From positions 1 to 39,489 of the IMG/VR virus record IMGVR_UViG_3300036832_000216: a stretch of DNA of 39,489 nucleotides, one strand, 5' to 3'. Below, one piece after another: positions 1 to 16,376 of this stretch. The stretch is from a virus. The number at the start of each line of letters is the position of its first letter. The stretch's first letter is position 1. The position numbers were made by a program, and so were the translations under genes. The notes under the pieces were generated by a model. That model ran no database searches. It saw only the letters and a list, made by a program, of their open reading frames with translations, and was not told the origin of the DNA.

Positions 1-1
1 T

Positions 2-73
2 TTGCAGGAGGAGGACAGAGACCCGTACTTGTCTGAAGTATCGCCAAGACCCTGTGGAACTTTGTCTACTTAG
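2..73 (+). CDS. 3' end of a gene cut by the window edge
   Basis: An open frame enters from the left edge and stops at TAG 71-73, just before the first early promoter, as other early genes here do. The last 23 residues (ending PRPCGTLST) show no domain. A second frame is open to position 110 but would run into the promoter, so this one is preferred. Function unknown; the call rests only on position and phase. Confidence 0.35.
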   Translation: MQEEDRDPYLSEVSPRPCGTLST

Positions 74-106
74 GGGCCGGCAGAAAAATAGCACCAATTC
101 GCACTC

Positions 107-136
107 TTGATTTGTCCTAACGTCCTGCTATATAAT
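107..136 (+). promoter_or_regulatory. Early promoter P1
   Basis: TTGATT (107-112), 18-bp spacer, TATAAT (131-136). It shares with the other eight copies an upstream AAAATAGCACCAA block, a GTCC-type half site in the spacer, TGC just before the -10 region and a TATAGTA-like discriminator. It drives the small zinc protein at 172. Confidence 0.9.
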
Positions 137-171
137 TATAGTAACAAACAAAAAAGGAGGCACAACACAAG

Positions 172-390
172 GTGATGCACAAACGGCGTAACGGCTCTTT
201 GGCAGTATGCTACCAGTGCAGAAATGGTAACCATGCCATGTGTTCGGGCGAGGACGAGATCTTGTCTGAGTCCTACTACTGCCACTGTTCATGCCAACCG
301 GAGTGCACACGACCTCAGTGCAGAGTCTCAGGTAAGAGAGCGCCATTCCGGTCCAAATCTTGGGCTCCGGACGACCCACGCTGGCAGTAA
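172..390 (+). CDS. Small Cys-rich zinc-binding protein
   Basis: A 72-residue protein behind P1. It carries closely packed Cys/His pairs (CYQCRNGNHAMC, then CHCSC and a further two Cys), a pattern expected to bind one or two zinc ions and seen in many small actinophage proteins. The shine-dalgarno AAGGAGG (154-160) lies 11 bases before GTG 172 and 14 before ATG 175, so either start is possible. The basic C-terminal tail (KRAPFRSKSW) would suit nucleic-acid binding. The role is unknown; an early host-takeover function is only inference. Confidence 0.7.
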   Translation: MMHKRRNGSLAVCYQCRNGNHAMCSGEDEILSESYYCHCSCQPECTRPQCRVSGKRAPFRSKSWAPDDPRWQ

Positions 391-415
391 CAAAAAATTG
401 GACCAATTTGGACGC

Positions 416-445
416 TTGATTGGTCCTTAGGACATGAGTTATAAT
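416..445 (+). promoter_or_regulatory. Early promoter P2
   Basis: TTGATT (416-421), 18-bp spacer, TATAAT (440-445). The spacer holds a perfect dyad, GTCC-TTA-GGAC (423-433), and a CCAATTTGG block sits just upstream of -35. It drives the genes at 477 and 704. Confidence 0.9.
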
Positions 446-476
446 TGTAGTAGAGGAGAGGAAAGGAGGTGAGAAC

Positions 477-665
477 ATGAAGATAGCACGTACACGTTAC
501 GTGATCGAGCACGCCAGTTGCTCGTCCTGCGGTGCGGAGTGCGATAAACCTTGCACGACCAGGAACGGGAACGTAATGTCACGCGTCCACGGGTTCCATA
601 CACCGAGGCTTACGGCTGCCGAGGCGTACGCACAGGCACACAGTGAGGAGATACCAATCGGGTAA
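477..665 (+). CDS. Small zinc-finger protein, CxxCGA..C type
   Basis: A 62-residue protein with CSSCGAECDKPCTT followed by a His-rich stretch (RVHGFHTPR). This is the compact finger common in actinophage and actinobacterial small proteins, in which three Cys and a His bind zinc. The start is fixed by a full-strength ribosome site AAAGGAGGTGA (463-473). It is the first gene after P2 and is followed after 38 bases by the 704 gene. Nucleic-acid binding is plausible but not shown by the sequence. Confidence 0.75.
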   Translation: MKIARTRYVIEHASCSSCGAECDKPCTTRNGNVMSRVHGFHTPRLTAAEAYAQAHSEEIPIG

Positions 666-703
666 CTTCACACACACACACACCCCTTCAGGAAGGAGGT
701 GAT

Positions 704-928
704 ATGGACTGGGACAACCCAGAGGCACAACGCCTAGCCGAGGCCGCACTCCTAATATGGTCCGGACTGAGTTACAGCGACTACACGGACACACTCAAAG
801 AGTTGGACTGGAGCCCTGGTGGGAACGCTCCGGCTGAGCCACTGACGAGAGAAGAGTGGACAGTGGCAGAGCAGTACGAGGAGTACGTCCACGAGGCAGT
901 AGCGCGTCTCATTGCCGGCTACATGTAG
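704..928 (+). CDS. Acidic hypothetical protein
   Basis: A 74-residue acidic, Trp/Tyr-rich, mostly helical protein with a strong ribosome site (GGAAGGAGGTGAT) before the ATG. No Cys/His cluster, membrane segment or known motif was recognised. It is the second gene of the P2 unit, and its stop is followed at once by P3. Acidic small early proteins can act as DNA mimics or inhibitors, but nothing in the sequence proves that here. Confidence 0.7.
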   Translation: MDWDNPEAQRLAEAALLIWSGLSYSDYTDTLKELDWSPGGNAPAEPLTREEWTVAEQYEEYVHEAVARLIAGYM

Positions 929-955
929 TGATCAAAATAGCACCAATTTGGACTC

Positions 956-985
956 TTGATTTGTCCTAACGTCCTGCATTATAAT
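956..985 (+). promoter_or_regulatory. Early promoter P3
   Basis: TTGATT (956-961), 18-bp spacer, TATAAT (980-985). The core from AAAATAGCACCAA through the spacer is almost the same as in P1, so the two are recent copies or under strong constraint. It drives 1016 and 1277. Confidence 0.9.
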
Positions 986-1015
986 AGAGGTAGAGTGAGA
1001 GAAAGGAGGTGAGAC

Positions 1016-1267
1016 ATGATAGTAGTACGTGTTTACAAAGTGGAAATGCCAGATCGGGGAACGGATGCATTCCGTAAACTGATGGACGCTGCCATTGAGG
1101 CAGGTGAGTTCGATGCAGAAGCTGACATGGAACAGCTTGCTGACACGGACGGTCTGCGTAGGGCAGTAGCCAATCACATGGTGGACCACTTCACAAGTGA
1201 TGCTGAGTACGCGATGCAAGTGTTCTTCATGCACAGTGAAGTACAAGAAGACCCTGAAGCGGAGTAG
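1016..1267 (+). CDS. Acidic hypothetical protein
   Basis: An 83-residue, strongly acidic protein, helical by composition, with no Cys cluster or membrane segment. The ribosome site AAAGGAGGTGAG lies just before the ATG. First gene of the P3 unit; its stop codon lies within the ribosome site of the next gene (TAGGAGGTG), so the two are probably translated together. Not recognised as any known family. Confidence 0.75.
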   Translation: MIVVRVYKVEMPDRGTDAFRKLMDAAIEAGEFDAEADMEQLADTDGLRRAVANHMVDHFTSDAEYAMQVFFMHSEVQEDPEAE

Positions 1268-1276
1268 GAGGTGAAC

Positions 1277-1459
1277 ATGCAACAAGATCAAGACGAGCCG
1301 GACGGCTATGTCATTCGGCACCGCCGCGCCACAGACACGTTGTGGTTCGGTCCATTCACTACGCAGGCGGAAGTACTCCAGTTCCTGCAGGCTAACCCAT
1401 CTGTGACGCCAGTTGTCATTCCGTGCTACAAGACGGTCGACTGGAACCGCATCGGCTAA
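1277..1459 (+). CDS. Hypothetical protein
   Basis: A 60-residue protein. ATG 1277 is chosen over GTG 1271, because GTG 1271 lies inside the AGGAGG ribosome site (1267-1272). The central part (GYVIRHRRATDTLWFGPF, then a helix and VTPVVIPCYK) looks like a small alpha/beta fold. No motif was recognised. Second gene of the P3 unit, coupled to the gene upstream. Confidence 0.7.
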   Translation: MQQDQDEPDGYVIRHRRATDTLWFGPFTTQAEVLQFLQANPSVTPVVIPCYKTVDWNRIG

Positions 1460-1486
1460 CCCCAAAAATAGCACCAAAGAGGACTC

Positions 1487-1516
1487 TTGATTTTCCCAGA
1501 GGACATGCTATATAAT
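1487..1516 (+). promoter_or_regulatory. Early promoter P4
   Basis: TTGATT (1487-1492), 18-bp spacer, TATAAT (1511-1516). The spacer contains TCCC-AGA-GGACA, an imperfect TCC/GGA dyad, then TGCTATATAAT. It drives the helix-turn-helix protein at 1561. Confidence 0.9.
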
Positions 1517-1560
1517 TGTAGTATCAAAGGAAAAAGGCAGACGGAAAGGAAAACCAAAAA

Positions 1561-1938
1561 ATGCCTGAAGAGATAGAAACCCCCGAGACCGAGGAGGTGA
1601 CGCCGGATGGGTTGCTCAAAGAGCTCCAGACCGGTTCGAACCTTCGCGGTATCGGAATCGAGAACCCGGATGACATCAAGCGCATCCAGGAACAACTAGA
1701 GGACGGGGTCATCAACCCCATTCTCTTGGCACGCTACATCGGCGTGCGACCGCAGATGATTTACCAAGCCATCCGCGACGGTAAGTTGACAACGACGTCA
1801 ACGAACAACACCCAGAAGAAGTTCATCCGGATTGGTGAAGCCGTCCGGTACGCTTCGTTGTACCTCAACAGGCGACAGCAGCGTGAGCTGGACAAGCTTC
1901 GTGAAGAGGCAATCCTCCAGCAGTACCGGGCAAGCTAA
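1561..1938 (+). CDS. Helix-turn-helix DNA-binding protein, copy A
   Basis: A 125-residue protein. An acidic N-terminus (about 1-45) is followed by a helix-turn-helix region at about 57-75 (ARYIGVRPQMIYQAIRDGKL), of the kind that reads like an excisionase/MerR-type recognition helix, and a basic C-terminal helix. The layout and several residues match the protein at 5817 (VRPQ-YQ versus VKPQ-YS, then a beta hairpin and I-EA-Y/W), so they look like paralogues. The ribosome site is weak (GGAAAGGAAAACC). It could regulate the nine shared promoters, but that is inference. A strong hairpin follows the gene. Confidence 0.75.
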   Translation: MPEEIETPETEEVTPDGLLKELQTGSNLRGIGIENPDDIKRIQEQLEDGVINPILLARYIGVRPQMIYQAIRDGKLTTTSTNNTQKKFIRIGEAVRYASLYLNRRQQRELDKLREEAILQQYRAS

Positions 1939-1945
1939 GATCGTT

Positions 1946-1981
1946 GCCGGAGCGTCGGTATTGTGTACTCGGCGCTCCGGC
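1946..1981 (+). terminator. Hairpin after the helix-turn-helix gene
   Basis: A perfect 9-bp inverted repeat, GCCGGAGCG (1946-1954) and CGCTCCGGC (1973-1981), lies seven bases after the stop codon. There is no real T-run after it, as often in actinobacterial terminators, so it may end or slow transcription before 2051 or simply stabilise the upstream message. Confidence 0.5.
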
Positions 1982-2050
1982 AGCGAATTTCCGAACAAGA
2001 ACAGAAAGGAGGTGAAAAAACGTCTTATTGGCAGCACATGGAGGTAATGC

Positions 2051-2437
2051 ATGAAACGCACTCAACGCCGATGGTTATGGGTATTGGCGTGTGCGCTTGC
2101 CATTGCAGTTGCCATTCCAGTTGGTTACAGTATCGTCGCATCCAACTTCTCGGCCAAGATCGTCCAACCGAACTTGGAGAAGCCTGCGGTGTTCGTTCCC
2201 AACCGGATCTGGTTCTGCAACACACTACGAAGTGTAGGTGGACTTCAGCACTTCGTTACTCAGGTTCAGGCCGACCCGTCGACCGACAACCTAGTGACGT
2301 TAAAGATTGCTGCAGTGAATGCGCCACTCTCGGTCGAAAGACTGATGGTGACCATCTACACAGATGTCAGGCAGCACACGCACAAAGCAGCCGTTCAGAC
2401 TGCGGTCAACCAAGTGAAGGAGATGGTTCCGTGTTAG
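2051..2437 (+). CDS. Single-pass membrane or secreted protein
   Basis: A 128-residue protein starting MKRTQRRWLW and followed by a hydrophobic segment (about 11-32), giving an N-terminal membrane anchor or uncleaved signal with the remainder outside. The ectodomain has two Cys (about residues 55 and 128) that could pair. A ribosome site GGAGGT (2040-2045) precedes the ATG; an unusually strong second site (AAAGGAGGTGA, 2005-2015) lies further up and could serve a very short leader peptide. It sits just before a lipoprotein gene, which suggests a shared cell-envelope role, perhaps exclusion of other phages. Confidence 0.7.
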   Translation: MKRTQRRWLWVLACALAIAVAIPVGYSIVASNFSAKIVQPNLEKPAVFVPNRIWFCNTLRSVGGLQHFVTQVQADPSTDNLVTLKIAAVNAPLSVERLMVTIYTDVRQHTHKAAVQTAVNQVKEMVPC

Positions 2438-2442
2438 GAGTG

Positions 2443-2919
2443 ATGAAGCGAGCGGTCGGCATTGCTATGGTGCCGGTGCTCTTTGGCGGATGCACGTTGT
2501 ACTCCAACACCTACGGCAACGCAGGAGTCGACGGCGTCTTGCAAGTCAAGTTTACCGTCAAGGAGGGGTTCAGTCAGGCGATGAGCAACATCCTCATCAA
2601 CACCTGCAACTGGAACTACCCGTGTTTTAGTTCCGACACTGACACGGTAGTCAAGGACCTGATCGGCCAGCAAGCGATCAATGACTGCGGAGTAGAAGTC
2701 TGTGACGGTGCGCCAGGAGGTCCAACGGATGCAATCGATGCCTTCTACAACCGGGCGTTTACCAACCCTGGCGGTTTTCCTTCTAAGGACTGGACGCAGC
2801 GTTGTGTAGCCTTCGAGGTACATACAGGCTTCCCAGACTTTTGGAACGAGAACGACGCCTACTACATCATCGGGACCTGGCAATGGTATCGACCAGGTAG
2901 TTGGAACTGCGGACCATGA
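2443..2919 (+). CDS. Predicted lipoprotein
   Basis: About 158 residues from ATG 2443. The N-terminus is short, basic and hydrophobic and ends in a lipobox (VLFGGC, Cys 17), so it is probably lipid-anchored on the cell surface. The mature part is Cys/Trp/Asn-rich, with six or more Cys, suggesting disulfides in an exported domain. GTG 2431 is an alternative start with a better-spaced site (AAGGAG 2417-2422). The open frame continues upstream to 1963 but that part overlaps the 2051 gene and is not expected to be coding. Function unknown; surface exclusion is inference. Confidence 0.65.
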   Translation: MKRAVGIAMVPVLFGGCTLYSNTYGNAGVDGVLQVKFTVKEGFSQAMSNILINTCNWNYPCFSSDTDTVVKDLIGQQAINDCGVEVCDGAPGGPTDAIDAFYNRAFTNPGGFPSKDWTQRCVAFEVHTGFPDFWNENDAYYIIGTWQWYRPGSWNCGP

Positions 2920-2947
2920 GCGATAAGGAGAAGTCCAAATAGGCCCC

Positions 2948-2976
2948 TTGATTTCGTCCAATTTCTGGGTTATAAT
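2948..2976 (+). promoter_or_regulatory. Early promoter P5
   Basis: TTGATT (2948-2953), 17-bp spacer, TATAAT (2971-2976). It is the most diverged copy upstream of -35 and lacks the TGC before -10. It is unusual in that no good gene follows for over 200 bases; transcription should start near 2983 and run into a strongly base-paired stretch. Confidence 0.85.
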
Positions 2977-2982
2977 AATAGT

Positions 2983-3178
2983 ATGACTCTGAGAAGGGGG
3001 CGCCTATGCCAAACCTTTGATGCACGGAATGCGTTTTGGCAAAGTCTGTGGCCTGCACTTTTCCTAGGAGCACAGGCCACCAGAGGTAGGGTGGGTGACT
3101 AGAGTCGGAGGAGAGCTCCGAACAGGGTCTTGGTTAAGCACCCGTCATTGAACACACCCACACTACTCCGGAAAGGAG
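2983..3178 (+). ncRNA. Candidate structured RNA or structured leader
   Basis: No open frame longer than about 19 codons is found here, yet promoter P5 sits right before it. Clear helices are 3007-3013/3035-3041 (7 bp), 3045-3055/3073-3084 (11 bp with one bulged C), 3086-3097/3155-3166 (11 of 12 pairs, one G-A mismatch) enclosing two hairpins, 3105-3110/3116-3121 (6 bp) and 3125-3131/3136-3143 (7 bp with one bulge). Helices follow each other with almost no gap, as in a folded RNA. No match to tRNA, tmRNA, group I or group II intron landmarks was seen. More inverted repeats continue to 3347. It could be a free RNA or the long leader of the next genes. Confidence 0.5.
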
Positions 3179-3250
3179 CGGACGTCGAGGATTGAACGGT
3201 TCGGTAGGGAGCCGGATTGGTGTCAAGTTTGGTATGCGTACAAGTGGCAC

Positions 3251-3424
3251 TTGATTAACGCCAGGAGACCGACAGTCCGAAAAATATTCCGTACCGGCTG
3301 CGGACTGTCAGTGCCAGTACTCACTAGAAGGTACGACGTATACTGGCCTTGGGACCGTCCACAAACTTGTAGGTCCTGTAAGCAGATCCTAGACGGCTGG
3401 ATGGAAGAGAGGATGAATGCCTAA
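3251..3424 (+). CDS. Small zinc-ribbon-like protein with unclear start
   Basis: The frame is open from 3152 to TAA 3422-3424 but has no ATG or GTG in its first part. TTG 3251 gives 57 residues; a rare ATT start at 3191 would give 77 and includes a convincing stretch (PDWCQVWYAYKWHL). The pattern T-x-CG, then WPWDRPQTCRSCKQIL, matches small zinc-ribbon proteins often found in actinophages. Its stop overlaps the ATG of the 3417 gene (ATGAATGCCTAA), which suggests coupled translation. Two perfect inverted repeats (3271-3279/3301-3309 and 3313-3319/3341-3347) lie inside it, so part of it may also be structured RNA. Confidence 0.5.
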   Translation: MINARRPTVRKIFRTGCGLSVPVLTRRYDVYWPWDRPQTCRSCKQILDGWMEERMNA

Positions 3425-3947
3425 CAAGTACGACGAGTACTGCGAAGTCGCTATGGACAAGATGTGGGAGCAGAGCATACCACACCCAGACGATGAGGAA
3501 GAGTCCGTTTGGTCCGGAGGACTGATCCACTACATTGAAGGGCTGTTCATGCCTACAAAAGTGAACGGGGGTAAGATCACAGCAATGCTACAGCAGAGTG
3601 GCGCTATTCACCAACTCGTTCGAGGAGGCGGCCCAACACCTTCTGTCTATCACCTACGTAGGCGTCACTATGCAACTAACGATGACGGAATGTCCGTAGA
3701 CGTAAGCAAGGCAGACCCGTACTACAGTACAACTACGGAGAGAAGGGAGAAGCAGTACTTGGGGCTGAACAATCGTCTGCACAAGCTGGAACAGTTCATA
3801 CCTATGTTGCTTGAGATCGCACTGGAACGCGCAGGAGATCCATCCGTTGCGGAACAGATCGCAGACGTATACGAAGAGGAAACGAAGAAGTCGATCGCGG
3901 AACAACTCGGCGTCCCGGACTACAATAGCACACAAGAGCACCCTTGA
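3417..3947 (+). CDS. Hypothetical protein
   Basis: A 176-residue protein with an acidic N-terminus and a helical C-terminal half (about 115-170) that looks like a coiled coil or helical bundle. No catalytic motif, zinc cluster or membrane segment was recognised. It starts inside the end of the preceding small frame, and its own stop TGA (3945-3947) lies inside the -35 element of P6, so gene and promoter share DNA. Function unknown. Confidence 0.75.
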   Translation: MPNKYDEYCEVAMDKMWEQSIPHPDDEEESVWSGGLIHYIEGLFMPTKVNGGKITAMLQQSGAIHQLVRGGGPTPSVYHLRRRHYATNDDGMSVDVSKADPYYSTTTERREKQYLGLNNRLHKLEQFIPMLLEIALERAGDPSVAEQIADVYEEETKKSIAEQLGVPDYNSTQEHP

Positions 3948-3973
3948 TTTACCTCTTGGACATGCTATATAAT
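3944..3973 (+). promoter_or_regulatory. Early promoter P6
   Basis: TTGATT (3944-3949), 18-bp spacer ending GGACATGC, TATAAT (3968-3973). The -35 element overlaps the stop codon of the gene upstream. It drives the tightly packed set from 4009 to 5738. Confidence 0.9.
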
Positions 3974-4008
3974 AGAAATATGATCAAAGAGAAAGGATGC
4001 TACGCAGC

Positions 4009-4203
4009 ATGATCAAATGGCAGGAAGTAGTTGAGGGTACAGAGTCCCTCGAAGAGGTGCTTAAGGAAGTGAAGCTCGTCATGACGCCGCAACAGTTCGT
4101 GGTGATGAACGAGATCATCATGGAGTACACCGGCAACAAGAACTGCGATCCTCGAGTGCACGACGTGCTGAACGAGATCAAGTTCGACTTCGTAAAGAAG
4201 TAG
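4009..4203 (+). CDS. Hypothetical protein
   Basis: A 64-residue helical protein. ATG 4009 is preferred over the in-frame ATG 3997, because the only ribosome site (AAAGGA, 3992-3997) overlaps the earlier ATG and lies 11 bases from the later one. Composition is acidic N-terminally and basic at the very end (FDFVKK). No family was recognised. First gene of the P6 unit, two bases before the next gene. Confidence 0.7.
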   Translation: MIKWQEVVEGTESLEEVLKEVKLVMTPQQFVVMNEIIMEYTGNKNCDPRVHDVLNEIKFDFVKK

Positions 4204-4205
4204 GG

Positions 4206-4394
4206 ATGAAAGCGTACCTACAAACATCCGAGTCAGGCTTCGAAAAAGAACTCGAAGTGTGCCACCCAGATCCCGAAGACGGAACGATCGTGATCCCAGT
4301 TAACTCGTACGACTTCTTGCAGGCGGAAGCATTCATTCTGGATAAGGGCGAAGAGGTCGAGCCGGGAACGATTTGGGTTCGAGTCATCCTATGA
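4206..4394 (+). CDS. Acidic hypothetical protein
   Basis: A 62-residue acidic, beta-rich protein (GTIVIPVNSYDFLQ, then PGTIWVRVIL). Not recognised. It overlaps the next gene by ATGA, so translation is coupled. Member of the P6 unit of small accessory genes. Confidence 0.7.
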   Translation: MKAYLQTSESGFEKELEVCHPDPEDGTIVIPVNSYDFLQAEAFILDKGEEVEPGTIWVRVIL

Positions 4395-4612
4395 GCGCCG
4401 AAATGACTCAGGCGGAAGCAGCAGCCATTTGGAACAACCTTAATCGTATGGACAAGGAAGACTTCGGTGGCGAGTATCCATTCGAGGTCATCGAGCAGGC
4501 GTGTGAAGCGGGCACCGTACTGGGCATAATGTACAAACAGACTATAGACGGAGAGGTACACTACAGCCTCACGGAGAGCGGAAGGAATAGGGAACTCGGA
4601 GAAGATGCCTAA
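4391..4612 (+). CDS. Hypothetical protein with winged-helix-like look
   Basis: A 73-residue protein. ATG 4391 is chosen because it overlaps the upstream stop as ATGA; an in-frame TTG at 4373 would add six residues. Helices followed by a beta hairpin (GEVHYSLTESGRNREL) are reminiscent of small winged-helix domains, but the match is too weak to assign. It overlaps the next gene by 8 bases. Confidence 0.65.
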   Translation: MSAEMTQAEAAAIWNNLNRMDKEDFGGEYPFEVIEQACEAGTVLGIMYKQTIDGEVHYSLTESGRNRELGEDA

Positions 4613-4808
4613 AGTCAGAACCAAAACTTGTCCCGGCTGTAATCAGTACGAGGAGATCGAAGTCACGTCCGAAGAACAAAAGAACCTGATGAGCGACATG
4701 CTAATCCAGAAAGCAGTACCTCGTCTCACACCAGGACAACGCGAACGCTTCATCAGCGGCTACTGCGACCCGTGCTGGGACAAACTCTTTCCGCCGGAGG
4801 AAGAATGA
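4605..4808 (+). CDS. Small zinc-ribbon protein
   Basis: A 67-residue protein with one CxxC near each end (CPGC at about 9-12 and CDPC at about 54-57), the layout of a treble-clef or zinc-ribbon fold binding one zinc. Actinophages often carry such proteins in early operons. Overlaps its upstream neighbour by 8 bases. Nucleic-acid or protein binding is likely, but the target is unknown. Confidence 0.7.
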   Translation: MPKVRTKTCPGCNQYEEIEVTSEEQKNLMSDMLIQKAVPRLTPGQRERFISGYCDPCWDKLFPPEEE

Positions 4809-4855
4809 ACGATCGACGCTTTATGCCTCCGACTCTCTTGTTCGACCGCATGTAG
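4805..4855 (+). CDS. Possible 16-residue peptide
   Basis: An ATG overlaps the stop of the zinc-ribbon gene (ATGA) and opens a short frame MNDRRFMPPTLLFDRM. It fills part of the 112-base gap before the PolX-like gene. The only support is the stop-start overlap, which is the rule for real genes in this unit. The rest of the gap (4856-4920) shows no promoter or strong hairpin. Confidence 0.25.
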   Translation: MNDRRFMPPTLLFDRM

Positions 4856-4920
4856 CGACCGTAACCGCTCTGCCGTTCTATTGTCCCCCTGCAGAAAACT
4901 GCGTCAGCGGAAGAGGTACT

Positions 4921-5634
4921 ATGACCAAAGAGCCTAACAAGTATCTTCCAGCTAAAGTCCGTAGAGTTCGAGAGGACTTGGCTCGCCCAGTCAAACAACT
5001 CGAACTGGCCGGACTAACAGTAGCCGGCAGCTGGAGGCGAGAGAAGGATACAGTCGGTGACCTCGATGCGCTTGTGCCACCCGAACTTGGTATGGAGAGA
5101 GCAGTACACTCCGCACAAGTGTTCTTTGGGTACGAGGAGATCCGAGGCGGTGCGATGAAGTCAGAAGGCATCGCGACCTATCGAGACCAACCACTCAACT
5201 TGAACTTCTGGTATGTACCGGATCCACATGCCTGGGCGGCCATGCTACTGTTCGCCACAGGGCCTCACGATCTGAACATCATGATGCGATCAAGAGCCAA
5301 GGGGCGAGGGCTTCTCCTATCGCAGTACGGCCTCTTTACACCTGGTAAAGAAGGTGAAGACAACACTCAACTCGACGACGGCGTGGAGGAGATCCAAATC
5401 TTTGAACTCCTCGGCCTTGTCTACCTTACCCCTGTGGAGCGCGAGCATTGGCGGGACTATTTGATCAAGACACCGAGCCAGAGCGTGGAAGTCCAAGTCC
5501 CAAGTTCGGATGGCGTAAACTTCTATACCGTTACGCTCAAAGACGGGAAGGGGTTCGACTGCAACTGCAAGGGCTTCGGGTACAGGAACCAGTGCCGCCA
5601 TCTCCAGGAAGCCGAGGAGTTGTACAAAGGGTGA
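4921..5634 (+). CDS. PolX-like nucleotidyltransferase fused to a SWIM zinc finger
   Basis: 237 residues. Residues about 15-185 match the palm and thumb of family X DNA polymerases: GS (36-37), D47-x-D49 in TVGDLDAL, then the LLFATG-HDLN block and an R-A-GRGLLLSQYGLF region followed by IFELLGL-YLTP. A SWIM finger follows (C214, C216, C225, H227; CxC-X8-CxH). At the place of the third metal-binding Asp of PolX the protein reads LNLNF (N93), so the usual polymerase metal site may be incomplete. The helix-hairpin-helix lyase domain is absent. It may be a non-canonical nucleotidyltransferase or DNA end-binding repair factor; SWIM fingers bind DNA or proteins. Downstream gene overlaps by GTGA. Confidence 0.75.
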   Translation: MTKEPNKYLPAKVRRVREDLARPVKQLELAGLTVAGSWRREKDTVGDLDALVPPELGMERAVHSAQVFFGYEEIRGGAMKSEGIATYRDQPLNLNFWYVPDPHAWAAMLLFATGPHDLNIMMRSRAKGRGLLLSQYGLFTPGKEGEDNTQLDDGVEEIQIFELLGLVYLTPVEREHWRDYLIKTPSQSVEVQVPSSDGVNFYTVTLKDGKGFDCNCKGFGYRNQCRHLQEAEELYKG

Positions 5635-5738
5635 GAGACCGCAGACGGAAACCGTTCGACGGGGCGAAGGAGTTCCCGAACATCTACTACACTCGTCGCT
5701 TGGTGGGTAGTTCGCGTGCTAAAAGAGTACCCAAATAG
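5631..5738 (+). CDS. Small very basic protein
   Basis: A 35-residue frame starting at a GTG that overlaps the stop of the PolX-like gene (GTGA) and ending just before P7. It is rich in Arg and Lys at both ends (VRDRRRKPF and RAKRVPK), with an aromatic centre. The exact stop-start overlap and the packing between a gene and the next promoter support it as real. Nucleic-acid binding is inferred from charge only. Confidence 0.5.
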   Translation: MRDRRRKPFDGAKEFPNIYYTRRLVGSSRAKRVPK

Positions 5739-5754
5739 CATCATAGGGACCTAC

Positions 5755-5784
5755 TTGATTTTCCACATGGACCTGCTATATAAT
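5755..5784 (+). promoter_or_regulatory. Early promoter P7
   Basis: TTGATT (5755-5760), 18-bp spacer with the dyad TCC-ACAT-GGA, TATAAT (5779-5784). Followed by AAAGGAGGTGATATAT and the second helix-turn-helix gene. Confidence 0.9.
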
Positions 5785-5816
5785 AGTAGGAGAACAAGAG
5801 AAAGGAGGTGATATAT

Positions 5817-6188
5817 ATGACAAACGTCGAAGGCGACATGCAGGAAGTGCATGCGGAAGACTTGGACGACGAAGAGGGTGGACCTAAGCCAGCCTCGATC
5901 GGCCGTAACTTCCAAGAGTTGCCTGAAGGGCACCTGACACTCGTCGGGTTCGCCAAGTTCCTGCAGAAGCCTCGTTCCCAGGGTGGGCGCTACGTGATCG
6001 TCAAGCCACAAGTGCTGTACAGCACGGCCAAGAACACGAAGTCGTTTCCCGTGAAGACTCACGTTGACGGTCGACAGATCGTGAACGTGGAAGAGGCCCT
6101 TCAGTGGTGGGATGAGAAGGAGCAGCGCAAGGCCGAGCGGGCCGCCGAACAGGCTCAGCAGCCAGAGCCTGAAGAGGAGGTCGGCTAG
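5817..6188 (+). CDS. Helix-turn-helix-like protein, copy B
   Basis: About 123 residues from ATG 5817, placed correctly behind AAAGGAGGTG (5801-5810); GTG 5808 lies inside that site. It has an acidic N-terminus, a central region (LVGFAKFLQK, then VKPQVLYSTAKNT) equivalent to the helix-turn-helix of the 1561 protein, a beta hairpin, then VEEALQWWDEKEQRK and an acidic tail. Both copies follow a shared-type promoter as first gene. A paralogous pair of DNA-binding regulators is likely, although the turn is less regular here. Its stop codon is the first base-paired part of a large hairpin. Confidence 0.7.
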   Translation: MTNVEGDMQEVHAEDLDDEEGGPKPASIGRNFQELPEGHLTLVGFAKFLQKPRSQGGRYVIVKPQVLYSTAKNTKSFPVKTHVDGRQIVNVEEALQWWDEKEQRKAERAAEQAQQPEPEEEVG

Positions 6189-6230
6189 TGAGGCGAGGGG
6201 AACCGTTGGAAAGGGTTCCCCTCCTCACTA
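6186..6230 (+). terminator. Large hairpin at the end of the helix-turn-helix gene
   Basis: 17 base pairs with one 2-base bulge: TAGTGAGG (6186-6193) pairs with CCTCACTA (6223-6230), and AGGGGAACC (6196-6204) with GGTTCCCCT (6214-6222). The stem begins with the stop codon itself. No T-run follows, so it could be a U-tract-less terminator, an RNA end protector or a processing site. Confidence 0.65.
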
Positions 6231-6266
6231 GGGTGCTACGGTGGAGTAACCGGCATCGTAGCACCC
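6231..6266 (+). terminator. Second hairpin directly after the first
   Basis: A perfect 10-bp stem, GGGTGCTACG (6231-6240) with CGTAGCACCC (6257-6266), starting at the base after the previous hairpin ends. No promoter is visible between it and the 6292 gene, so downstream genes rely on readthrough or on RNA processing here. Confidence 0.6.
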
Positions 6267-6291
6267 CAGTGAGGAAACGGAAGGAGGTGAT

Positions 6292-6477
6292 ATGAAGAAC
6301 GGAGAACTGCAGGAGCTCCTGAAACAATGGAGTGATACAGAAGAAGTCGTCGTGGTAATTGTTCTCAGCGACGACTACGAGCCTGAGGATGGTGACGTCC
6401 TCGACATCGAAACAGACGGTGATGTAGCCTTTCAATCTGGGAAGGTAACCATCACTGCAACGGCACCCGACAATTAA
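6292..6477 (+). CDS. Acidic hypothetical protein
   Basis: A 61-residue, very acidic, beta-rich protein with a ribosome site GGAAGGAGGTGAT just before the ATG. No motif was recognised. It comes right after two strong hairpins and begins a block of small genes that leads to the SNF2 helicase. Confidence 0.7.
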   Translation: MKNGELQELLKQWSDTEEVVVVIVLSDDYEPEDGDVLDIETDGDVAFQSGKVTITATAPDN

Positions 6478-6497
6478 ACGGAGAACGGAAAGGAATC

Positions 6498-6737
6498 ATG
6501 GCTGCAACACCAACCAGACAGGCGTGTCCTGAGTGCGGTAAGAAACTCAAGCACGTCGGGATGCACATGAAGAATGTGCACGGTATCGCCGGAGGCTTAT
6601 CCGGTAGAGTCCACAAAAGTAGGAACGGCGCCAAACCGGAGCCTACGTTTAAGACACGTGGGTTCACCCGAGTCGAGGAGTTTATAGTCCTCGAGGACGA
6701 CGACGGCGGAATGTGGCTTGCGGAGAAGATCCGGTAA
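6498..6737 (+). CDS. C2H2-type zinc-finger protein
   Basis: A 79-residue protein. A finger of the form CPECGKKLKHVGMHMKNVH lies at about 10-28 (two Cys, two His), so it should bind one zinc and probably DNA or RNA. A basic linker and an acidic C-terminal segment follow. The ribosome site is AAAGGA. Stop and next start overlap (TAATG). Confidence 0.75.
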   Translation: MAATPTRQACPECGKKLKHVGMHMKNVHGIAGGLSGRVHKSRNGAKPEPTFKTRGFTRVEEFIVLEDDDGGMWLAEKIR

Positions 6738-7060
6738 TGGCCAAGGAACTGATGGAGATCCACGAGCTCACGGATAAGTTCCTAATGTGCAGAGCATTAG
6801 GACATTCGTGGGATGACAATCCGAACCCTGAGATCGATAGTGATCTGTACCACAGTAGTCGAGCAGCAGTGTTCCTAAGGTGCACACGTTGCAGAACTGA
6901 ACGGTTCGACTACCTAGATCAGTCATTGCAGGTGTTCACAAGGTACTACAGGTACCCGAAGAAGTACACGACAATCCCCGGCTCCACACGACCAGATGTG
7001 CGAGCCGAAATGCTGAGCCGATCGTTACTGATCAGATCGAGGCGCAACGGCAAACGATGA
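6737..7060 (+). CDS. Actinophage-type zinc-ribbon protein
   Basis: A 107-residue protein. It shows the pattern C-x-LGHSW, then LRCTRCRTER, then RYYRYPKKY, which recurs in many actinophage early proteins: the Cys/His set binds zinc, and the Tyr/Pro block follows. ATG 6737 overlaps the upstream stop; an earlier in-frame codon at 6713 lies inside the neighbour. The family has no settled function to my knowledge. Confidence 0.75.
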   Translation: MAKELMEIHELTDKFLMCRALGHSWDDNPNPEIDSDLYHSSRAAVFLRCTRCRTERFDYLDQSLQVFTRYYRYPKKYTTIPGSTRPDVRAEMLSRSLLIRSRRNGKR

Positions 7061-7272
7061 AGGTGAACTTCAACACAACTGTACTGGGTGAGGCTATCGT
7101 CTGGAGGTCGGAAAGCGATACTCGCCCAGGCCTATTCCATTACACGTTCAAGTTACGTCACGGGGGAATGGTCTGCTCATGCGAGGGCTGGCAGTATAAC
7201 GCTTTCTGCAAGCACCTAGAACGTGCCCCGGTAGAAGCAATCGAAAGGCTAATGGCGAACTGGCGTGATTGA
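7057..7272 (+). CDS. Stand-alone SWIM zinc-finger protein
   Basis: A 71-residue protein that is little more than a SWIM finger: C40, C42, C51, H53 (CxC-X8-CxH), preceded by a beta-rich stretch. The spacing is the same as in the SWIM tail of the PolX-like protein. SWIM fingers occur in SWI2/SNF2 ATPases and other DNA-linked proteins, and the very next gene, overlapping by 8 bases, is a SNF2-type helicase. It may be the detached SWIM part of that helicase; that is inference. Confidence 0.8.
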   Translation: MKVNFNTTVLGEAIVWRSESDTRPGLFHYTFKLRHGGMVCSCEGWQYNAFCKHLERAPVEAIERLMANWRD

Positions 7273-8644
7273 TCTATTCCCATTCCAGAAGGAAGATGTC
7301 GACCACCTCGAGGGTGTTACAGGAGCATTAAATGCTAATGACATGGGAACTGGAAAAACGTATGAGGCGATCGAACGTGACGCGAGGATACGAGCAGCGA
7401 ACGGAGGACGAGGTGCTACACTCGTAGTCGCACCGCTGACGATCCTCGAAGACGTCTGGCAGGCACACTTCGAGGAACTGACAGACCTCAAGGTCGTTGT
7501 GTGCGATCCCAAAGACCGTAAGCGAAGCTGGTCAGCTTGGCATGTGATCAAAGGCGATGTCTTTGTCGTCCATTGGGAAGCACTGAGACTGATGCCAGAG
7601 TTAGCACAGGCACAGTGGCTCCACGTGATTGCTGACGAATGCCACAGGGCTAAGAACCGCAAGGCTCAACAGACAAAGGCCCTGAAGTCTATTCCGCACG
7701 TCGGCTACAAGACAGCGATGTCAGGTACACCAGTCATCAATCGTCCAGATGAGTTGTGGAGTATTCTGAACTGGCTACATCCAAGGGTCTATACTTCGTA
7801 CTGGAAGTTCTTCGGCAAGTACGTTGAGACTGAAACCAAATACTTCCGAGGTAGGACCGTACGAGTGGTTGTTGGTCCTAAGAACCTGCACAGACTTCGT
7901 GAGGAGCTGGAGCCCTTCTACGTTAGGCGGCGTAAAGAGGACGTGCTTCCAGACTTGCCGGAGAAGTACTACACAGAGATCAAGGTCGACCTTACACCAG
8001 TACAACGTCGAGCATACGACACAATGCGGAAGGAGATGATTGCCTGGATCGGTAATCAAGAAGCGGAGGTCTTAGCTGCCCCTGTGGTGATTGCGCAGCT
8101 CATCCGGCTGCAGCAGTTCGCCGTAGCGTTTGCCGAGTACGACGAAGATGGTGATCGTATTCGATTGTCAGAGCCGAGCTCGAAGCTTGACGCACTAATG
8201 GAGGTACTGGATGAATCCGAAGAACCGCTGGTCGTCTTCAGTCGGTTCAGGCAACTTGTCGACCTTGCAGCAGAACGTTTCCGTCAGGCGAATATTTCCT
8301 TTGTTACCCTTACGGGTGATACGAGCCACGCCGATCGACGGAGCAATGTCGAGAAGTTCCAGAAGGGTAACGTACGTGTTTTTATTGGGACGCTTGGAGC
8401 TGGGGGTGTCGGCATCACGCTCACAAGGGCTAGTACGGTGTGCTTTCTCGATCGGGACTGGTCACCAGCTCTCAACAGACAAGCCGAGGATAGACTCCAC
8501 CGTATCGGACAACAGAACGCAGTTCAGGTCATCGACATTACCGCCCGAAGAACCGTAGACCTAGGTAAGAAGCAGATGCTCGACCTGAAGGAATCCTGGA
8601 TCCGAGCCATCCTAGGCGATCCTCAAAATGACAATACGCATTGA
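7265..8644 (+). CDS. SNF2-family superfamily 2 helicase/translocase
   Basis: 459 residues from GTG 7265, a compact DEAD/DEAH-type ATPase with both RecA-like lobes. Visible motifs: Q-like FPFQKEDV, Walker A (DMGTGKT, K31), DECH box (IADECHRAKN), SGTP motif, and motif VI in the form DRLHRIGQ, which is the SNF2 signature. No extra chromatin domains are present. It should move along double-stranded DNA using ATP and may act in replication restart, recombination or displacing proteins. It starts inside the SWIM gene. Confidence 0.92.
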   Translation: MIDLFPFQKEDVDHLEGVTGALNANDMGTGKTYEAIERDARIRAANGGRGATLVVAPLTILEDVWQAHFEELTDLKVVVCDPKDRKRSWSAWHVIKGDVFVVHWEALRLMPELAQAQWLHVIADECHRAKNRKAQQTKALKSIPHVGYKTAMSGTPVINRPDELWSILNWLHPRVYTSYWKFFGKYVETETKYFRGRTVRVVVGPKNLHRLREELEPFYVRRRKEDVLPDLPEKYYTEIKVDLTPVQRRAYDTMRKEMIAWIGNQEAEVLAAPVVIAQLIRLQQFAVAFAEYDEDGDRIRLSEPSSKLDALMEVLDESEEPLVVFSRFRQLVDLAAERFRQANISFVTLTGDTSHADRRSNVEKFQKGNVRVFIGTLGAGGVGITLTRASTVCFLDRDWSPALNRQAEDRLHRIGQQNAVQVIDITARRTVDLGKKQMLDLKESWIRAILGDPQNDNTH

Positions 8645-14138: not shown

Positions 14139-14195
14139 TCAGATCCTTGGGGGTAGGTGTTTGCCTACCCCCAAGGAACATTCAAGGGGATCTGA
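14139..14195 (+). terminator. Strong hairpin before the primase gene, overlapping its ribosome site
   Basis: CCTTGGGGGTAGG (14145-14157) pairs perfectly with CCTACCCCCAAGG (14164-14176) around a 6-base loop. An outer 6-bp arm, TCAGAT (14139-14144) with ATCTGA (14190-14195), would enclose the AAGGGGA ribosome site (14184-14190) and end at the base before the TTG start. It can act as terminator, attenuator or translational control of the primase. Confidence 0.65.
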
Positions 14196-16376
14196 TTGGC
14201 TGCAAGTCCCATTCTCGTTCTTTCCGAAGAGACTGCACTTCGGAGAGAAACATTCTTCAAGGTCGTATTCGATAGAGCGCATTCAGGCTACCTCTGCATT
14301 GCACGACGTGTCGCGGGTAAGGGCGCATTCGAAGAACGATTCTTCCAATGGCCAGATGATCTAGCTACGCTCGGCGAGTACATAAACGAATCGGTAATGA
14401 ATCACGATGTGTGGTTCTGTCCGATGCTATTCGATGCTCCTTCCAGAAAGAAGGAGCATGTTGATATTTGTACTTCCGTTTGGGCGGATCTCGATACATG
14501 TCCACCTGAGCAGCTGCTCATCGAGCCTACGGTCGTAATCGAATCTAGTCCGAATAGGTACCAAGCACTCTGGCTACTCGTTCAACCAGCGGAACCACTT
14601 GAGGCTGAAGATGCATCGAAGAAGGTAGCGTACTTCCATGCTGAGGCGGGAGCGGACAAGTCCGGTTGGGATCTAACTCAACTGCTTCGTGTTCCGTTCA
14701 CACTCAACTACAAGTACGCACCTCCTGCAACAGTACAAGTGAAAGCGGCAGGCGATTCTGTTGCACTAGTGGACTTCACTGTCTACCCTGTGGTGACAGA
14801 AGACATATCCGCAACGTGGCCGTTTCCTGATTCGATTGAGGATTCACAAACACTTCTGGATCAGTATAAGAATGACATCGACCAGACGGTGTGGCCACTG
14901 CTGCAACTCGAACCTCGAGAAGACTGGTCAAAGGCCCTTTGGAATCTCGAGATGTTACTCAGCGAGTCGGGACTGTCTCGAGAAGACGTCTTCAGTATCG
15001 CACGTGATGCAAAGTGCAATAAGTATAGGCGTGATGGTAGAAGCGAGAAGCTTCTGTGGCGTGAAGTATGCAAAGCATGGGATCGTGTACGGGAACGTCG
15101 CGACGTTATACCTGATACAACCGTCTACAAGAACCCTGATCTGTTGTCCGATGGTGACCTCCGTGCAGCAGAACAAGATAGGACGTTCGTAGAGGATTAC
15201 GTCGACTGGGCAAAGGGTGTCGGTGATGCAGCTGAAGTGTATCATCATGCTGGCGCATTCATTGCACTCAGTTGTCTGTTAGCAGGATCAGTACGATTGC
15301 AAACGTCGTTCGGTCCGATAGCACCTAACTTATGGTTCTTGTTATTAGCAGATACAACCCTGACGCGAAAGTCAACGGCATTAGACTTAGCAGTAGACCT
15401 ACTGACTGAGGTAGACTCCGACATCATCCTTGCAACAGACGGATCGATCGAAGGGTTGTTCTCAGCACTCGCAGGGAGACCAGGAAGACCTAGTCTGTTC
15501 CTACGAGATGAGTTCAGTGGCTTCATTGAGGTCATAACCAAACGGGACTACTATGCTGGTATGCCAGAGACGTTAACTAAGATGTACGACGGTAGGTTTC
15601 AGAAGAGGCAGTTGCGTCGGGAGATCATCGAGGTCAAAGAGCCTGTACTGATTCTGTTCGCAGGTGGTATCAAGAGCAAGATCCTGTCGCTGTTAGGCGA
15701 CGAGTTCGTCTACTCAGGGTTCCTGCCACGATTCGTCTTCGTAACGGCTAAGTCTAACTTAGGCAAGTTAAGGCCTCTAGGACCGCCGAACGATCGAACA
15801 ATATCTGGACGTGAGTTGCTGCGAGCTAGGCTGGCAACGATAAAGGCCCGGTATCAGCGGGAGATCGAAATCACCACAGGGTCGATTAAGATACCCGTAC
15901 AAGATAGACCTGACGTCCAGTTGACACCAGATGCTTGGAAGCTGTACAACAACATGGAACTACGACTACTAGAGTCAGGCATTAAGAGTCTTGCACAGGA
16001 CATGATGACACCAACGATGGACCGCCTAGCAAAGTCAGGACTAAAGGCATCGATCCTAATTGCAGGTAGTCGAATGCAAGATGGAATAGTAACAGTAACA
16101 GAGGGTGATATCCTGAAAGCGTTTCAGTACGTCACACAGTGGCGTGAGTTTGCAATGGAGGTGATGTCGAATATAGGAATAAGTGCACAGGAGAAGCACA
16201 TCGAGTTGATCTATGCAACTGTCAAACGTAGTCCTGGTGTAGCGCGAAGTGAGTTGATGAGAACGTATCATATGACTAAGCGTGAAGCCGACTTGATATT
16301 CGACACGTTAGAGCAGCGGGGATTGATCGCTCGAGTCAAGACAAAGGGAACAGAACGTCTAACAGCGCTGCTGTAG
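14196..16376 (+). CDS. Primase-helicase (PrimPol plus DUF3987)
   Basis: 726 residues from TTG 14196 with AAGGGGA at the right distance. The N-terminal third resembles RepB/PrimPol-type primases: a DLD metal motif at about 97-99 (VWADLDTCP), VIESSPN, and GWDLTQLLRVPFTLNYKY. The middle (about 340-570) is a DUF3987-type ATPase with ADTTLTRKST at the nucleotide-binding loop and FLRDEFSGF as a Walker B-like strand; the usual Gly residues of Walker A are missing. A winged helix ends the protein (about 665-726). It likely starts and unwinds phage DNA replication. Confidence 0.8.
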   Translation: MAASPILVLSEETALRRETFFKVVFDRAHSGYLCIARRVAGKGAFEERFFQWPDDLATLGEYINESVMNHDVWFCPMLFDAPSRKKEHVDICTSVWADLDTCPPEQLLIEPTVVIESSPNRYQALWLLVQPAEPLEAEDASKKVAYFHAEAGADKSGWDLTQLLRVPFTLNYKYAPPATVQVKAAGDSVALVDFTVYPVVTEDISATWPFPDSIEDSQTLLDQYKNDIDQTVWPLLQLEPREDWSKALWNLEMLLSESGLSREDVFSIARDAKCNKYRRDGRSEKLLWREVCKAWDRVRERRDVIPDTTVYKNPDLLSDGDLRAAEQDRTFVEDYVDWAKGVGDAAEVYHHAGAFIALSCLLAGSVRLQTSFGPIAPNLWFLLLADTTLTRKSTALDLAVDLLTEVDSDIILATDGSIEGLFSALAGRPGRPSLFLRDEFSGFIEVITKRDYYAGMPETLTKMYDGRFQKRQLRREIIEVKEPVLILFAGGIKSKILSLLGDEFVYSGFLPRFVFVTAKSNLGKLRPLGPPNDRTISGRELLRARLATIKARYQREIEITTGSIKIPVQDRPDVQLTPDAWKLYNNMELRLLESGIKSLAQDMMTPTMDRLAKSGLKASILIAGSRMQDGIVTVTEGDILKAFQYVTQWREFAMEVMSNIGISAQEKHIELIYATVKRSPGVARSELMRTYHMTKREADLIFDTLEQRGLIARVKTKGTERLTALL

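Follow-up and report, generated by a model that had tools for sequence, protein, structure and literature searches.

The stretch from 2983 to 3347, which an earlier note had put forward as a candidate new structured RNA behind its own promoter, is probably the 5' leader and intercistronic stretch of a transcript from an early phage operon and carries one putatively cis-acting hairpin, which two related phages share. Beyond this hairpin, the flagged region is either gene sequence or structure found in this phage only. Since the region is mostly operon leader and gene, it ought not to be listed as a new class of noncoding RNA. Our reading is based on synteny, the loss of a gene, a conserved hairpin apex carried on stems that differ yet remain paired, and a protein gene that begins at about 3191. 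Comparison with related phages further shows that conserved hairpins are a feature of the early gene junctions in this phage group.

The window, i.e. the whole stretch of DNA analysed, is a 39,489-base IMG/VR virus record. The record is a phage contig, the plus strand of which carries the early and replication half (helicase, ligase, exonuclease, primase, and DNA polymerase) and the minus strand the structural half. No near DNA relatives of the window were found among annotated phage records, and the peptide patterns of the 176-aa and 90-aa proteins retrieved no close relatives. Syntenic relatives in IMG/VR were reached via the primase, namely G001, G003, and G002, together with the fragment G004 (Table 1). 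Most of the early genes have counterparts across the window, G001, G003, and G002. Elsewhere in the window, positions 4921–5634 encode a protein with matches to the thumb and palm of DNA polymerase beta and with a C-terminal cysteine/histidine motif. The family of this PolX-like protein is DNA polymerase beta/PolX (Pfam), and a genome scan with it returned only remote family members (28–37% identity), all of them from cellular genomes and none from a phage.

Table 1. Features of the flagged region and its surroundings, and the relatives used for comparison.
Feature	Location	Strand	Description
Promoter P5	2948–2976	+	TTGATT, 17-nt spacer, TATAAT; predicted transcript start about 2983
Mini-ORF	3006–3020	+	Four codons ATG-CCA-AAC-CTT-TGA (MPNL), behind purine-rich AAGGGGG
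Possible remnant of the lost Rpf-like gene (3' end)	3029–3048	+	TTGGCAAAGTCTG, compared with TTGGTAAAGTCTG at the G001 rpf stop
Conserved intercistronic hairpin	3045–3084	+	Apex CCUAGGAGC; no U-tract after
Predicted three-way junction	3086–3166	+	Closing helix of 11 of 12 bp; this phage only
Shine-Dalgarno-like site of downstream gene	3170–3178	+	GGAAAGGAG; placed like AGGAGG in G003 relative to the protein
Conserved small protein gene	3191–3424	+	CGx(n)CxxC pattern; contains the repeats to 3347
Next operon gene	3417–3947	+	176 aa; kept in 3 of 3 relatives
Rpf/transglycosylase-like gene in early region of relatives	L012 1474–1878; L013 280–795; L015 2229–2645	(−) for L015	Threonine-rich linker
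Relative G001	IMG/VR 3300036798_000143
Relative G003	IMG/VR 3300036791_000368
Relative G002	IMG/VR 3300043765_000015		Most divergent relative
Relative G004			Fragment, 5.4 kb

The helices named in the earlier note are present and are formed in the minimum-energy fold, including 3007–3013/3035–3041, 3045–3055/3073–3084, 3105–3110/3116–3121, and 3125–3131/3136–3143, and the helix 3086–3097/3155–3166 is paired at 11 of its 12 positions. Comparison with shuffled sequence, the check proposed in the same note, went against the region as a whole, the stability of which is not beyond chance (z-score of −1.45 for the 210-nt region, with 18 of 200 shuffles as good). In a fold scan of the whole window, z-scores place the test windows covering the region at ranks 35 to 105 of 329. 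Of the repeats described up to 3347, the 9-bp repeat 3271–3279/3301–3309 exists, and those from 3190 to 3347 lie within coding DNA because a conserved protein gene runs from about 3191. The supposed lack of a useful frame likewise ends at about 3191, since 3191–3424 is a conserved protein frame; the frames upstream are intermediate in codon score. Protein coding across 2983–3180 was considered and rejected, as two frames, one of 39 aa beginning at 2983 and one at 3103–3195, have codon scores between those of coding and non-coding sequence and have no relative. No terminator-like site (a G+C-rich hairpin with a U-tract) was found in 2800–3500, and the conserved hairpin, which has no U-tract after it, does not fit an intrinsic terminator. 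None of the Rfam 15 families scored above the gathering threshold over 1–8000, with sub-threshold chance matches only in 2940–3430. ARAGORN gave no tRNA or tmRNA match.

The promoter that had been placed ahead of the region was confirmed and is one of a family of near-identical promoters repeated in the window. Both G001 (L015 reverse complement 7295) and G003 (L012 1368) have a P5-type promoter at the orthologous position, where it serves an mRNA, and a pattern search with promoter variants gave matches only in G001, G003, and G004. In G001 and G003 the promoter is followed by an orthologous mini-ORF (ATGTACCCTGAGTGA and ATGACTCCAGATTGA, respectively, both behind AAAGGAG) and then by a GTG-started Rpf/transglycosylase-like gene (PF06737, E 1e-16). 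The mini-ORF of the window is a probable orphan leader peptide. The Rpf-like gene occurs in all three relatives, preceding the same downstream gene in G002, and is absent throughout the window. Because G002 has the gene despite being the most divergent relative, loss is the simpler direction, and the window phage has probably lost it. Its presence in the relatives suggests an actinobacterial host. In G001 and G003 the GGAG ribosome-binding site of the gene can be paired within a small hairpin, the stability of which does not exceed that of shuffles. As judged by local alignment with G001 (p 0.009, 1000 shuffles), positions 3029–3048 of the window may be a relic of the 3' end of rpf, the resemblance to TTGGTAAAGTCTG lying at 3036–3048.

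The conserved hairpin is located directly 3' of the rpf stop in G001 and shortly 3' of it in G003. The apex CCUAGGAGC is common to the window, G001, and G003; CCTAGGAGC is present in the apex of all three hairpins, which reads CCCTAGGAGC in G001 and G003 and TTCCTAGGAGC in the window. The fold z-scores are −3.99, −5.80, and −2.38 for G001, G003, and the window, respectively. The stems vary in length and sequence among the three phages, yet pair in each. When aligned by hand, the inner five stem pairs are identical in all three, whereas the outer pairs vary with pairing kept, as in a U-A pair of the window that is G-C in G001 and G003 and another pair that is G-C in G001 and A-U in G003. In the automatic alignment fold, 1 of 15 pairs is changed on both sides. 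A covariance model built from G001 and G003, with the window left out, had its best window match at 3044–3089 (E 0.015). Only three sequences have the hairpin with CCUAGGAGC; across them, a conserved gene junction is combined with pair-preserving changes, though few pairs are compensated. The compensating changes expected for the helices in general are confined to the 3045–3084 set, as 3007–3041 and the multiloop 3086–3166 have no counterpart in the relatives. The covariance model of the hairpin gave no match in G002 or in more distant phages. The apex CCUAGGAGC is absent from G002, where this gene junction is occupied by another strong hairpin (z −5.56), and the hairpin is not present in distant phages with related small DNA-binding-like genes. 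A pattern search of all viral contigs returned 47 places, and those besides G001 and G003 lack the context and look like chance. From this comparison, the hairpin is most likely a cis-acting signal between genes and not a free-standing new RNA.

The three-way junction gave no match in the relatives or in phage records. Folded alone, with its ends chosen, 3086–3166 has a modest excess of stability (z −2.42). A Watson-Crick stem of 11 of 12 bp was obtained in 0 of 100 shuffles of the region and is present in 14 of 188 window tiles. Since this stem is locally unusual, a function of 3086–3166 that is particular to the window phage is conceivable. Positions 3091–3108 weakly resemble what follows rpf in G003 (p 0.002, one of about ten tests).

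From about 3191, the downstream protein is 67% identical to its counterpart in G003 and 51% identical to that in G002, and it belongs to no Pfam or PHROG family. The reading frame is open from 3152 to 3424, and the substitution rates (dN 0.23, dS 1.40, dN/dS about 0.16) indicate purifying selection on the protein from 3194 on. The TTG at 3251, given earlier as the start of this gene, cannot be the start, as the conserved residues FGREPDW precede it. Ahead of the conserved part, the frame contains no ATG, GTG, or TTG. The aligned start position is GTG in G002, CTG in G003 (six bases after AGGAGG), and TCG in the window (six bases after AAGGAG); the ATT at 3191 is a further start candidate.

These features can be arranged in a simple scheme. 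In the relatives, the transcript would run from the promoter through the leader mini-ORF, the Rpf-like gene, and the CCUAGGAGC hairpin to the conserved downstream genes. Loss of the Rpf-like gene in the window phage would have joined the mini-ORF to the hairpin, leaving a leader of about 200 nt ahead of the 3191 and 3417 genes. The hairpin would then most likely act in cis as punctuation between cistrons: it may stabilize the message or be cut, defining the end of the upstream message, and may damp or separate downstream expression. Both this action at the RNA level and its direction are what we infer from the arrangement. Strong hairpins without U-tracts are frequent at other gene junctions in these phages as well, as would be expected if such hairpins generally punctuated messages through stability, cutting, or damping. 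Of the two alternatives offered earlier, a leader for the 3251/3417 genes fits, whereas a separate noncoding RNA product of the phage does not.

Such an independent product would be a trans-acting phage RNA of about 190 nt, extending from 2983 through the three-way junction. It would account for the promoter of its own, the chain of helices with the unusual 11-of-12 stem, and the lack of an Rfam match, but the missing terminator-like site leaves it without a defined 3' end and the z-score of the whole region is weak. A Shine-Dalgarno-like site and conserved genes follow directly downstream, the same promoter drives an mRNA in the relatives, and among the parts of this RNA only 3045–3084 has counterparts, the junction having no relative. 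We therefore regard a free-standing RNA as very improbable. Also unlikely is a transcription attenuator, in which the 3045–3084 hairpin, alone or with an unrecognised factor, would stop some transcripts short of the 3191 and 3417 genes. Consistent with it are the strength of the stem at an operon junction, its kept position in G001 and G003, and the different strong hairpin at this junction in G002; the U-tract is missing, however, and an alternative antiterminator pairing was not found. Hairpins without U-tracts have been proposed as terminators in actinobacteria, but termination of this kind is disputed, which further weakens the attenuator.

The mini-ORF and 3086–3190 could also be unconstrained relics left by loss of the Rpf-like gene, with only the hairpin being old and the other helices due to chance. 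The missing Rpf-like gene, the lack of a standard start in the downstream gene where the relatives have GTG or CTG, the similarity of 3091–3108 to the G003 sequence after rpf, and the intermediate codon score of the frame 3103–3195 all point toward such a deletion scar. Against this, chance would not be expected to give the 11-of-12 stem at this composition, and the downstream protein is under purifying selection; we consider the scar unlikely. The operon leader with a cis-acting hairpin is the reading that we prefer.

A double hairpin at 6183–6280 (z −6.63) is positioned between the early genes 5808–6188 and 6292–6477. All four phages have the element; of its 29 pairs, 7 differ on both sides, and 99% of cells are paired. 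It has no Rfam match, i.e. it is undescribed in Rfam. The CCTCACT strand (6224–6230) has two possible AGTGAGG partners, one at 6187–6193, overlapping the stop codon of the upstream gene, and one at 6268–6274. The two foldings are mutually exclusive because both AGTGAGG copies compete for the same strand; as the AGTGAGG/CCTCACT pairs never vary, this switch is supported by sequence identity and not by covariation. The 6183–6280 element is a far better RNA element than the flagged region and reaches a standard of which the latter falls short; it is well supported, undescribed, and has two alternative folds that exclude each other. A weaker match to its model (E 4e-4) was found in a distant phage at L024 2371–2468, where tandem strong hairpins follow a related small gene of PQMVY type. 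It is a doubtful proposition that the apex CCUAGGAGC is the site of an RNA-binding protein, from phage or host, and that 3045–3084 and 3086–3166 together belong, as a single unit, to a set of cis-acting RNA devices that this phage group places at early gene junctions, of which 6183–6280 would be the clearest. Just before the TTG start of the primase, at 14142–14200, the window has a hairpin of 15 bp, enclosed by an AGATCC/GGATCT pairing that covers the ribosome-binding GGGGAT; the arrangement is similar in G001 and G003 and varied in G002. Strong intergenic hairpins are also observed after a MerR-like 125-aa gene, at 1938–1990 in the window and at the equivalent places in G001 and G003.

Several known systems resemble parts of this region. 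The SAS of cluster K mycobacteriophages (GGGATAGGAGCCC) is a 13-bp sequence present in 11–19 copies per genome, 3–7 bp from start codons, and RNA pairing of the ESAS repeats is not supported (PMC3203893). Shared with SAS/ESAS are the conserved motif containing TAGGAGC and the inverted repeats, which lie in gaps between actinophage-like non-structural genes (PMC3203893). In contrast to SAS, the hairpin motif occurs once per phage, in an apex, with no adjoining start codon, and in contrast to ESAS the stem of the 3045–3084 hairpin pairs; the hairpin falls outside the definition of SAS/ESAS, the resemblance being TAGGAGC only. GOLLD and ROOL (Rfam) are likewise structured phage RNAs, but these are several hundred nucleotides long and 2940–3430 has no Rfam match. 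In leader-peptide controlled translation, a short ORF opens a hairpin over the next ribosome-binding site. The mini-ORF of the relatives similarly stops just before the hairpin that covers the Rpf-like gene's GGAG; the window no longer has the gene that would be controlled, and the coupling is a putative one. In the early mRNAs of phage T7, RNase III sites are intercistronic processing and stability hairpins. Like these, the 3045–3084 element is a strong hairpin with an internal-loop-like apex, placed between early operon genes with no U-tract, whereas its sequence is unrelated and any cleavage is hypothetical. By analogy, T7-type RNase III sites and leader-peptide control appear to be the nearest functional models.
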